Below the pieces are notes generated by a model. It saw only the letters and a program-made list of their open reading frames with translations. It had not been told where the DNA came from and ran no database searches. Shown piece after piece: positions 1,000-3,835 of a DNA stretch of 64,000 nucleotides. The stretch spans positions 1 to 64,000 of the forward strand of contig JAPSLP010000012.1 of the NCBI GenBank assembly GCA_031180665.1, written 5' to 3'. Both the position numbers and the translations under genes were made by a program. Source of the stretch: Cupriavidus sp. (GTDB taxonomy: Bacteria > Pseudomonadota > Gammaproteobacteria > Burkholderiales > Burkholderiaceae). Within the stretch, counting starts at the first letter, position 1. Every line of letters starts with the position of its first letter.

Positions 1000-1059
1000 A
1001 TGACCTTCCGGGCTCCGACCGTTTCGTCGCATTCGTCCCGTTGGTGGCGCTTCCACTAG
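1000..1059 (+). CDS. Candidate trp leader peptide with tandem Trp codons (19 aa)
   Basis: A short frame reads MTFRAPTVSSHSSRWWRFH and stops at TAG. The two Trp codons lie at 1042-1047. The only possible ATG is 1000, because an in-frame TGA occurs at 985. A hairpin with a seven-base-pair stem (1048-1065) follows the Trp codons directly and contains the stop codon, as the 1:2 hairpin does in known trp attenuators. It lies about 275 bases before trpG, in the right orientation. Against it: no clear Shine-Dalgarno sequence, and no terminator with a T-run was found before trpG. The layout suggests Trp-dependent attenuation of trpGDC, but this is inference. Confidence 0.45.
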   Translation: MTFRAPTVSSHSSRWWRFH

Positions 1060-1065
1060 GAAGCG
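1048..1065 (+). promoter_or_regulatory. Hairpin overlapping the stop codon of the putative trp leader
   Basis: CGCTTCC and GGAAGCG form a perfect seven-base-pair stem around the loop ACTA. The TAG stop codon of the leader frame runs from the loop into the right arm, and the two Trp codons are immediately 5' of the stem. Further weak stems (TTGCC/GGCAA at 1093-1114 and again at 1242-1255) follow before trpG; which of them compete with each other needs folding software. Confidence 0.4.
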
Positions 1066-1334
1066 GCACGTCGTTGCGTTCTTGTTCGCACCTTGCCGCC
1101 GTTCCGGTTGGCAAACGTGCGGTCCGACAGCTCACCGGTGCGGCGGCTCCCAGATACCCAGGAGATCTGCCGATGCCGTCGAATCCCTCCCCCGCTTCAA
1201 CCGATCCGAATACCGCCGCGCGCCAGCCTGCGCCGAGGGCATTTGCCGCTTGGCAAGCCGATGCGCCGTTGCGCCGTTTGCCCACGCGTTCCGCACGCGC
1301 CTTCCGTTTCCACCAACATCAAGCCGGGTGAATC

Positions 1335-1990: not shown

Positions 1991-3019
1991 ATGCCCATCA
2001 CGCCCCAGGAAGCGCTGACGCGCTGCATCGAACACCGCGAGATCTTCCACGACGAGATGCTGCATCTGATGCGGCAGATCATGCAGGCGCAGATCTCGCC
2101 GGTGATGGCCGCCGCGATCCTGACCGGCCTGCGCGTCAAGAAGGAAACCATCGGTGAGATCACCGCCGCCGCGCAGGTGATGCGCGAGTTCGCCAACAAG
2201 GTCGCGGTGTCCGAGCGCGAGCATTTCGTCGACATCGTCGGCACCGGCGGCGACGGCTCGCATACCTTCAATATCTCGACCGCCTCGATGTTCGTCGCCG
2301 CCGCGGCCGGCGCGCGCATCGCCAAGCACGGCAACCGCGGCGTCAGTTCCAAGTCCGGCAGCGCCGACGTGCTGGAGGCGCTCGGCGTCAATATCATGCT
2401 GACGCCCGAGCAGGTCGGCCAGTGCATCGCGCAGACCGGCATCGGCTTCATGTTCGCGCCGACCCACCATCCCGCGATGAAGAACGTCGCGCCGATCCGC
2501 AAGGAGATGGGCGTTCGCACGATCTTCAACATCCTCGGCCCGCTGACCAACCCGGCCGACGCGCCCAATATCCTGATGGGCGTGTTCCACCCCGACCTGG
2601 TCGGCATCCAGGTACGCGTGATGCAGCGCCTGGGCGCACGCCATGCGCTGGTGGTCTACGGCAAGGACGGCATGGACGAGGTGTCGCTCGGCGCCGCCAC
2701 GCTGGTGGGCGAACTCAAGGACGGCGAGGTCCGCGAGTACGAGATCCATCCGGAGGACTTCGGCCTGTCGATGATCTCCAACCGCGGCCTGAAGGTGGCC
2801 GACGCGGCCGAATCGAAGGAGATGCTGCTCGAGGCGCTGTCCAACGTGCCGGGCACCCCGCGCGAAATCGTGTCGCTGAACGCCGGCACCGCGCTGTACG
2901 CAGCCAATGTCGCCACGTCGATCGAGGACGGCATCGCCCGCGCGCGCGAGGCGATCGCCAGCGGCGCGGCCCGTGCCAAGCTCGACGAGTTCGTGCAGGC
3001 GACGCGGCAATTCCAGTAA
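1991..3019 (+). CDS. trpD: Anthranilate phosphoribosyltransferase
   Basis: Transfers the phosphoribosyl group of PRPP to anthranilate, the second step of tryptophan synthesis. The ATG at 1991 gives 342 residues, the normal family length; the reading frame stays open far upstream, but that part is a shadow of trpG. The helical N-terminal domain is followed by the PRPP/glycine-rich loop [17 protein letters not shown] and by [22 protein letters not shown], both diagnostic. Further on, the KDGMDEVS segment provides the conserved acidic residues for metal binding. The gene follows trpG after 86 bases and is 12 bases from trpC, so the three are probably co-transcribed. Confidence 0.96.
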
Positions 3020-3031
3020 TCAGAGGCAAGC

Positions 3032-3835
3032 ATGTCCGACATCCTGCAGAAGATCCTGGCCGTCAAGGCCGACGAAGTCAGCGCCGCGCGCAAGCGCCGC
3101 GATCTGCCCAGCCTGCGCGCCGAAGCGGAGAGCCTGCGCGCGGAGGCCGGCATGGCGCCGCGCGGATTCGGCGCGGCGCTGCGCGCGAAGATCGATGCCG
3201 GCCACGCCGGCGTGATCGCCGAGATCAAGAAGGCGTCCCCGTCCAAGGGCGTGCTGCGCGAGCATTTCGTGCCCGAGGCCATCGCCGAGAGCTATGCGAA
3301 CCACGGCGCGGCGTGCCTGTCGGTGCTGACCGACGAACACTTCTTCCAGGGCCATGCCGACTACCTGAAGCGCGCGCGCGGCGCCTGTCCGCTGCCGGCG
3401 CTGCGCAAGGACTTCATGGTGGACCTGTACCAGGTCTACGAGGCGCGCACCTGGGGCGCCGATGCGATCCTGCTGATCGTCGCCGCGCTCGATCCGGGCC
3501 TGATGGCCGAGCTCGAGGCCTGCGCGCACGAGCTGGGCATGGACGTGCTGGTCGAGGTCCACGACGGCGCCGAGCTGGAAGCGGCGCTGCGGCTCGAGAC
3601 GCCGCTGGTCGGCGTCAACAACCGCAATCTGCGCACCTTCGAGGTCTCGCTGCAGAACACGCTGGACCTGCTGCCGGCGATGCCGGCGGACCGGCTGGTG
3701 GTGACCGAGTCCGGCATCCTCGGACCGGATGACGTGGCGCGAATGCGCAAGGCGAACGTGCATGCCTTCCTGGTCGGCGAAGCGTTCATGCGCGCCGAGG
3801 ACCCTGGCGCCGAGCTGGCCCGGCTGTTCGCCTGA
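3032..3835 (+). CDS. trpC: Indole-3-glycerol phosphate synthase
   Basis: Closes the indole ring from CdRP, with loss of CO2 and water. At 267 residues it is a single-domain TIM barrel, not fused to TrpF as in enteric bacteria. Seen motifs include [13 protein letters not shown] with the catalytic lysine, [20 protein letters not shown], and the phosphate-binding region VTESGI near the C-terminus. It starts 12 bases after trpD and ends the trp cluster. The following 83 bases hold a degenerate 15-bp tandem repeat rather than a clear terminator. Confidence 0.96.

Follow-up and report, generated by a model that had tools for sequence, protein, structure and literature searches.

In attenuators of the Escherichia coli trpL type, the leader peptide carries tandem Trp codons, its stop codon lies in the 1:2 hairpin, and the leader RNA can form 1:2, 2:3, and 3:4 pairings. 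In translational attenuators of the erm type, a ribosome stalls on a leader ORF and the Shine–Dalgarno (SD) sequence of the next ORF is held in a stem. Attenuation of both trpE and trpGDC in Pseudomonas putida was reportedly described by Olekhnovich and Gussin in 2001. The Trp attenuators of Corynebacterium and Streptomyces encode leader peptides containing two or three UGG codons and can form alternative hairpins, with GC-rich terminators that carry poly-U tracts (PMC1262725). In the trpGDC leader of Pseudomonas aeruginosa, premature 3′ ends lie next to what may be an upstream ORF with a GTG start (PMC8297930).

Here, we analyzed a candidate Trp leader at the start of a 64,000-nucleotide stretch of Cupriavidus sp. 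DNA (hereafter, the window), where it precedes trpG (anthranilate synthase, glutamine amidotransferase; 1335–1904), trpD (1991–3019), and trpC (3032–3835), all on the plus strand and all scoring above the cut-offs of their models (TIGR00566, TIGR01245, and NF001373, respectively). The leader resembles the E. coli trpL type in its tandem Trp codons, its stop codon within a hairpin, and its alternative segments; unlike that type, it has no U-run, is followed by an extra start site and a second ORF, and has no match in Rfam release 15, either for the window at the gathering thresholds or for positions 900–1400 at E-values up to 10. The lack of a terminator with a U-tract also sets it apart from the Corynebacterium and Streptomyces attenuators as that paper describes them. 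With the erm type it shares a leader ORF and, as predicted, a stalled ribosome and a stem that holds the SD sequence of the following ORF, but the signal here would be the Trp supply, and folding did not reproduce an opening of the SD sequence by stalling. The closest likeness is to the P. putida trpGDC attenuator: the gene order is the same, and the trpG leaders of Pseudomonas fulva, Pseudomonas entomophila, and Pseudomonas capeferrum belong to the family of the window leader, whereas the window copy lies in Cupriavidus, behind inserted pga genes. Since attenuation of P. putida trpGDC is reportedly in print and native-looking Pseudomonas leaders belong to the family, this kind of control is already known. 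In the titles and abstract openings among the matches listed, we found neither a description of this leader in Burkholderiales nor an account of its breadth or of a layout that combines a coupled second ORF with the lack of a terminator.

Conservation and spread of the Trp leader upstream of trpG

The leader ORF, MTFRAPTVSSHSSRWWRFH, occupies positions 1000–1059 of the plus strand (19 codons, with the TAG stop codon at 1057–1059) and contains two consecutive Trp codons, TGGTGG, at 1042–1047 of the same strand. A preliminary description of this DNA had proposed such a frame in the right orientation ahead of trpGDC, with ATG 1000 as its only possible start; both points were borne out, no other in-frame ATG, GTG, TTG, or CTG being present back to the preceding stop codon. 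Equally correct was its 7-bp hairpin enclosing the stop codon (CGCTTCC, 1048–1054; GGAAGCG, 1059–1065), which forms part of a longer stem, A:B, on the plus strand (GTG.CGCTTCC, 1044–1054; GGAAGCG.CAC, 1059–1069), with the stop codon spanning the loop and one arm. Its doubt over an SD sequence stands, none being seen before ATG 1000. The further doubt, that TGGTGG could occur by chance in GC-rich DNA, was fair: the window contains 92 copies (48 on the plus and 44 on the minus strand), three other places in it hold short ORFs that carry WW close to their end, and the whole region folded no better than shuffled sequences (z = 0.26). The leader nevertheless stands above chance because it is conserved, and a fortuitous WW without function, which is refuted by conservation at the same gene across genera and families, retains a negligible probability.

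Among four Cupriavidus genomes, 5 of 75 columns varied in 985–1059 and 4 of 123 in 1060–1182 (9 of 198 over 985–1182), compared with 92 of 141 in 1183–1320, 30 of 107 in 760–866, and 37 of 89 in 911–984. The conserved unit reaches approximately position 1182 and takes in the second start site (SD, 1160–1164; ATG, 1173). The whole region upstream of trpG was matched in only 4 of 60 genomes of the genus, that of the window and three others (G020, G045, and G046). When 200 genomes of the family to which the window belongs were searched at the DNA level, the block appeared in three genomes belonging to a second genus, with 76% identity from the WW codons on; these copies lie between trpE and trpG, and their leaders are MFSTT-, MFRTT-, and MLRTTLTRAAQWWRFR. 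The MFSTT- and MFRTT- peptides also occur in two Mycetohabitans records. Within the order, 399 genomes were scanned for the pattern with up to three mismatches allowed, and there were four matches, namely, the window and three genomes of another Burkholderiales family, f4.

A covariance model built from ten sequences (R1) matched 50 of 200 f4 genomes at E-values up to 0.01, 47 of them with at least 64 bits. In the 57 aligned matches, which include the ten seed sequences, a comparable leader ORF ending in W-W-R-x-x-stop was present in 55, and 54 matches sit upstream of trpG and trpD. The exceptions are L122 and two weak matches, L160 and L161, which we judged to be false. The falsely matched genomes, G651 (27.7 bits) and G668 (21.3 bits), have neither such a leader nor trpG and were excluded from the alignment A7 and later counts; the counts also leave out G749 (24.5 bits) and the second weak matches in G666 and G703. 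WWW replaces WW in three leaders (L142, L143, and L144). The preliminary description had suggested aligning relatives as a check on the leader, and the alignment came out in its favor: WW or WWW is kept in 55 of the 57 matches, and in the leader hairpin, three pairs show changes on both sides while remaining paired. The N-terminal half of the peptide, meanwhile, changes among the matches. This pattern argues against a leader that merely passes ribosomes on, by re-initiation or transcript protection, with no sensing of Trp; the leader ORF and the second ORF could conceivably hand ribosomes to trpG, but we consider such a role on its own very improbable. Judged by this comparison, the Trp leader frame ahead of trpG is real.

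Scanning named genomes for an exact motif, one that itself includes the WW codons, gave 90 stretches, of which 80 were used as loci. They come from Cupriavidus, Mycetohabitans, Achromobacter, Bordetella, Pigmentiphaga, Pusillimonas, Candidimonas, Pseudomonas, Stutzerimonas, Alcanivorax, Vreelandella, Luteibacter, Thauera, Zoogloea, and other genera. A second model, R2, matched all 80 loci with at least 95.7 bits, and trpG lies within 900 nucleotides in 73 of them, the other seven having no trpG within the stretch or this limit. Among them are four native-looking Pseudomonas trpG loci (P. fulva, two of P. entomophila, and P. capeferrum; L163, L170, L217, and L236), whose leaders have the form MTC....WWRF and score 107–113 bits with R2. 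The window, which is in the seed of both models, scores 156 bits with R1 and 132 bits with R2, and belongs to the trpG leader family that these models define, with segments A to E, the SD sequence, the start codon, and trpG at 1335. A search of a class-wide sample of 369 genomes with R2, in which eight candidates were scored per genome, matched the window alone, a result that bounds the spread of the family but does not measure it; either the family is patchy or this search was too coarse. The leader was also present on metagenome-assembled contigs filed as Chloroflexota and Acetobacteraceae (L186 and L200), possibly reflecting binning errors or mobile copies.

Alternative stems and their predicted response to a ribosome

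Downstream of A:B, several plus-strand stems can form. A small stem, b (GTTGCG/CGCAC, 1073–1091), predicted by alifold between B and C, was paired in 320 of 385 cells in A7 and in 508 of 560 cells in a second alignment, A8. Stem C:D spans 1093–1114 (TTGCCG.. with ..TGGCAA), and a long alternative stem, C:E, the alifold consensus, joins GCCGCCGT.CC at 1095–1105 to GG.GCGGCGGC at 1137–1147 (overall, 1095–1147). In stem E:F (1147–1164), an anti-SD CTCC (1147–1150) faces the GGAG (1161–1164) of the second start site. In L143 and L144, which carry WWW leaders, CUC/GAG stands in place of CUCC/GGAG. A7 consists of 53 distinct rows, several genomes occur in both alignments, and the 133 rows (two of 135 lacking a landmark) do not represent 133 species. 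As both alignments were made to a model containing A:B, b, and C:E, the counts for these stems lean that way, whereas C:D, B:C, B:E, and E:F lie outside the model.

In A7, A:B was paired in 99.1% of cells, and three of its pairs change on both sides; the outer helix of C:D was paired in 92.7%, also with three such pairs, and E:F in 81.6%, with one. For these three stems together, 36 cells covaried, compared with 10.6 in shuffled alignments and 3–8 in slid versions; when covarying pairs were counted instead, the seven observed were not clearly above the 5.0 of the shuffles, as 60 of 500 shuffles reached seven. C:E was paired in 96.6% of cells and had two covarying pairs, a number reached by 16 of 500 shuffles. 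B:C was paired in 98.7% of cells with no covariation at all. Thus, the alternative stems corresponding to 1:2 (A:B) and 3:4 (C:E), as well as C:D, are backed by covariation. In 52 of 54 loci, C:D equals or exceeds B:C in strength, and B:C, the counterpart of the 2:3 antiterminator pairing, should therefore lose to D.

We then folded 54 loci in stages, with a ribosome masked as stalled on WW or as positioned at the stop codon. When C had just emerged, B:C pairing was 0.93 in the stalled state and 0 at the stop codon, and it was only at this stage that the 2:3 pairing was predicted. Once D was out, C:D prevailed in both states (0.85 stalled and 0.93 at the stop codon). When E had just emerged, C:E was 0.53 in the stalled state, with B partly on E and C partly on D, and 0.95 at the stop codon. 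In 31 of the 54 loci, C:E at this stage was higher at the stop codon by more than 0.1, and in none was it lower by that margin; the remaining 23 shifted by no more than 0.1. At full length, equilibrium folding with the same masks revealed no Trp-dependent switch (C:E, 0.19 stalled and 0.16 at the stop codon). These models predict that the polarity at the moment of decision would be classical over the family. We are fairly confident that low Trp means trpGDC on, a view held less firmly than it might be because the predicted minimum-energy fold of the window itself has C:E in both states.

The conserved WW frame and the compensating stem changes support the preliminary description in its reading of the region as an attenuation leader, while the strict form of that reading, with an intrinsic terminator, is left unsupported. 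Together, these results suggest that the leader very probably switches trpGDC by tryptophan supply without the usual terminator, and our confidence that it acts as a ribosome-mediated Trp attenuator of trpGDC is high.

Search for a terminator and the second ORF

An intrinsic terminator, that is, a 3:4 hairpin followed by a U-run, was absent from 480–1340 of the window, from the region after E in 54 loci, and from the region after C:D in 133 rows. The preliminary description had already found no T-run; our scan of 480–1340 agrees, giving two weak sites against 0.8 expected. After segment E, no more than five T occur in any 8 nucleotides within 30 nucleotides in the 54 loci; after C:D, there were never more than six T in 8 nucleotides, and the two rows with six represent one Castellaniella-type sequence present twice. 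The count after E tells against a release of transcription that the C:E hairpin, lying shortly before the second start site, would drive without a U-run. Such a release would suit the long and conserved C:E stem, which is the predicted high-Trp structure over the family once E has just emerged, and the P. aeruginosa 3′ ends beside the GTG-start ORF (PMC8297930); overall, we consider it unlikely.

Segment E is followed by a second start site. An SD-like sequence followed by ATG, GTG, or TTG was present in all 54 loci with trpG (AGGAG at 1160–1164 of the plus strand in the window), with a spacer of 6–9 nucleotides except in four loci with 5 and three with 11. In the window, it opens a second short ORF of 52 amino acids (1173–1331, plus strand) that ends in TGA-ATC-ATG, the TGA lying 3 nucleotides before the trpG ATG, and that stays open in the four Cupriavidus genomes despite indels. 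The second start site is the trpG start itself in five genomes (L123, L141, L154, L158, and L159), which were omitted from the following count. In 41 of the 49 remaining loci, the second ORF terminates within the interval from −30 to +12 relative to the trpG start, compared with 8 and 8 for the other two frames; with identical cases collapsed, the figures were 36 of 44 versus 8 and 7. As read from these sequences, this is the pattern of translational coupling from the second ORF to trpG. L131 has its second ORF joined to trpG in one continuous reading frame of 224 residues. We rejected the notion that the second ORF encodes a functional small protein, as its protein sequence is not conserved, and prefer a translated spacer; a single long ORF over 1041–1331 was also rejected, as G046 has a 2-nucleotide deletion within the block.

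The SD sequence of the second ORF is predicted to be hidden in the family: its unpaired value was 0.108, compared with 0.318 in shuffled sequences, and 49 of 54 loci fell below their own shuffle mean. In the window itself, the SD sequence is not clearly hidden (0.34 versus 0.37, with 8 of 20 shuffles as low). A hidden SD sequence, together with the retained CUCC/GGAG pairing of E:F, is what a purely translational attenuator would call for, in which a stalled ribosome frees B, the GGAAG of B takes the CUCC of E, and the SD sequence of the second ORF (or of trpG) opens, E closing it otherwise. The pairing of B with E fits this explanation, being present in 94.7% of A7 cells, with one covarying pair and six both-side changes compared with 1.7 in shuffles; the B:E duplex was also stronger than that with shuffled E in 50 of 54 loci (−12.3 versus −9.5), and the genomes in which the second site starts trpG directly point the same way. 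In A8, however, B:E covariation was not above shuffles (1 cell versus 0.2; 107 of 500), and in the folding models, stalling did not expose the SD sequence, either at equilibrium at full length (0.13 unpaired when stalled and 0.10 at the stop codon) or in the structure frozen at the E stage (0.26 versus 0.24). The premature 3′ ends reported for P. aeruginosa trpGDC (PMC8297930) also count against this explanation. We therefore consider purely translational control rather unlikely.

The RNA of the second ORF has a property that bears on termination of another kind. Its body is C-rich, with C above G in 49 of 49 loci (0.41 versus 0.24), and would thus suit Rho if left untranslated, though the excess is no stronger than inside trpG: per 60 nucleotides, it was 15 in the second ORF and 14 within trpG, about equal, and trpG starts are C-rich in 43 of 49 loci. 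Provided that the P. aeruginosa leader belongs to the trpG leader family, its 3′ ends would fit termination close to the second start site. As the main output, we tentatively propose termination of the Rho type, tied to translation of the second ORF, a proposal on which doubt slightly exceeds belief.

Gene neighborhood, putative integrative elements, and the proposed mechanism

Upstream of the leader, the window holds the reversed start of pgaA (2–472; 157 amino acids in the window, with a partial TIGR03939 match), followed by a sigma-70-like promoter sequence, TCGACA-18-TAAAGT, at 867–896 of the plus strand (one site versus 0.1 expected). The leader, which lies downstream, would be transcribed from this site; in the four Cupriavidus genomes, the promoter stretch (867–910) differs in 3 of 44 columns. 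In 15 other loci of the genus (those on the plus strand), trpE ends approximately 18–28 nucleotides 5′ of trpG. Conversely, a pga cluster lies between trpE and trpG in G020, G045, and G046 (in G045, pgaB and pgaD were assigned by model and the remaining genes from ORF order), and in the window's genome, trpE is on a separate contig, likewise adjoining a pgaD-like ORF. Within the Cupriavidus gilardii/Cupriavidus cauae group (the window and L063 to L066), the pga cluster thus splits the trpE–trpG neighborhood seen in other members of the genus. With pga genes between trpE and trpG, trpGDC of the window has its own promoter-like site and leader, and trpE keeps a different Trp leader.

A trpE match was found in 57 genomes, and 31 of these trpE loci were read for a leader. 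All 31 (L064, 3861–3947 on the minus strand; L031, L032, and L067 to L095) carry a Trp leader of trpE's own, MFLNRKRI..SDRQAWPWRRWRASQQA, with small changes, and AGTGCGTTCGCGA follows its stop codon in 31 of 31. Insertion of the pga genes via an attachment site in trpG was considered but gained no support, as no residual trpG start (with up to four mismatches) was found near trpE in four Cupriavidus stretches, that of the window's genome being partial, with its trpE on a separate contig.

Outside these stretches, some trpG loci look like insertion sites. Close similarity over the 30 nucleotides preceding trpG and over its opening codons, up to about codon 9, is shared by L203 (P. putida 31753), L227 (Achromobacter xylosoxidans B_1), L238 (Zoogloea), L197, L181, L175, and L230. 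The rest of trpG is host-like where it can be compared, the P. putida gene being 84% identical to that of P. entomophila and 68–72% to those of the other carriers. Upstream, a segment of L203 is 79–89% identical to segments in seven loci of this or a similar kind, and in L203 and L227 this segment contains ParA- and ParB-like ORFs (named by eye). In genome G788, downstream of a leader (L122, 1501–3100) lie a trpG start truncated after seven codons and a tyrosine integrase, and trpG is found on another contig behind a WWW leader (L142, 1518–2500). The simplest reading is that integrative elements insert in the first codons of trpG, bringing a promoter, the leader with its second ORF, and a new 5′ end. 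Each of ten genomes searched had one strong leader copy, so that no native leader displaced from trpG came to light in P. putida 31753. Such an insertion trace was not detected in the four Cupriavidus stretches examined, and the papers on integrative elements among the matches listed do not mention trpG.

Taken as a whole, a Trp attenuator with ribosome stalling, a C:E switch, and a coupled second ORF is the explanation in which we place considerable confidence. When charged tRNA-Trp is plentiful, the ribosome would reach the stop codon, with B hidden by the ribosome or in A:B; C would pair with E as E leaves the polymerase, keeping the second ORF closed, and its C-rich RNA would remain untranslated, with transcription ending before trpG, probably with the help of Rho. 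When Trp is short, the ribosome would stall on WW, and B would be free to pair first with C and then to compete for E; the weakened C:E would allow translation of the second ORF, from which ribosomes would restart on trpG. A more elaborate version of this attenuator is possible, if doubtful: the GGAAG in B would serve as a decoy that a stalled ribosome sets free to capture the CUCC of E, thereby opening the SD sequence of the second ORF; this translated but hypervariable ORF would shield the C-rich RNA from Rho and hand ribosomes to trpG, and the module would be self-contained enough for integrative elements that insert in the first trpG codons to carry it along.

Textbook control of this kind is defined by its terminator; here, it would operate without one and with an extra start site, the ORF of which stops at the beginning of trpG. 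The leader thereby turns the question of where the terminator lies into a direct test of Rho versus translation, and the family may provide a case of a control module that travels with integrative elements into a biosynthetic gene.
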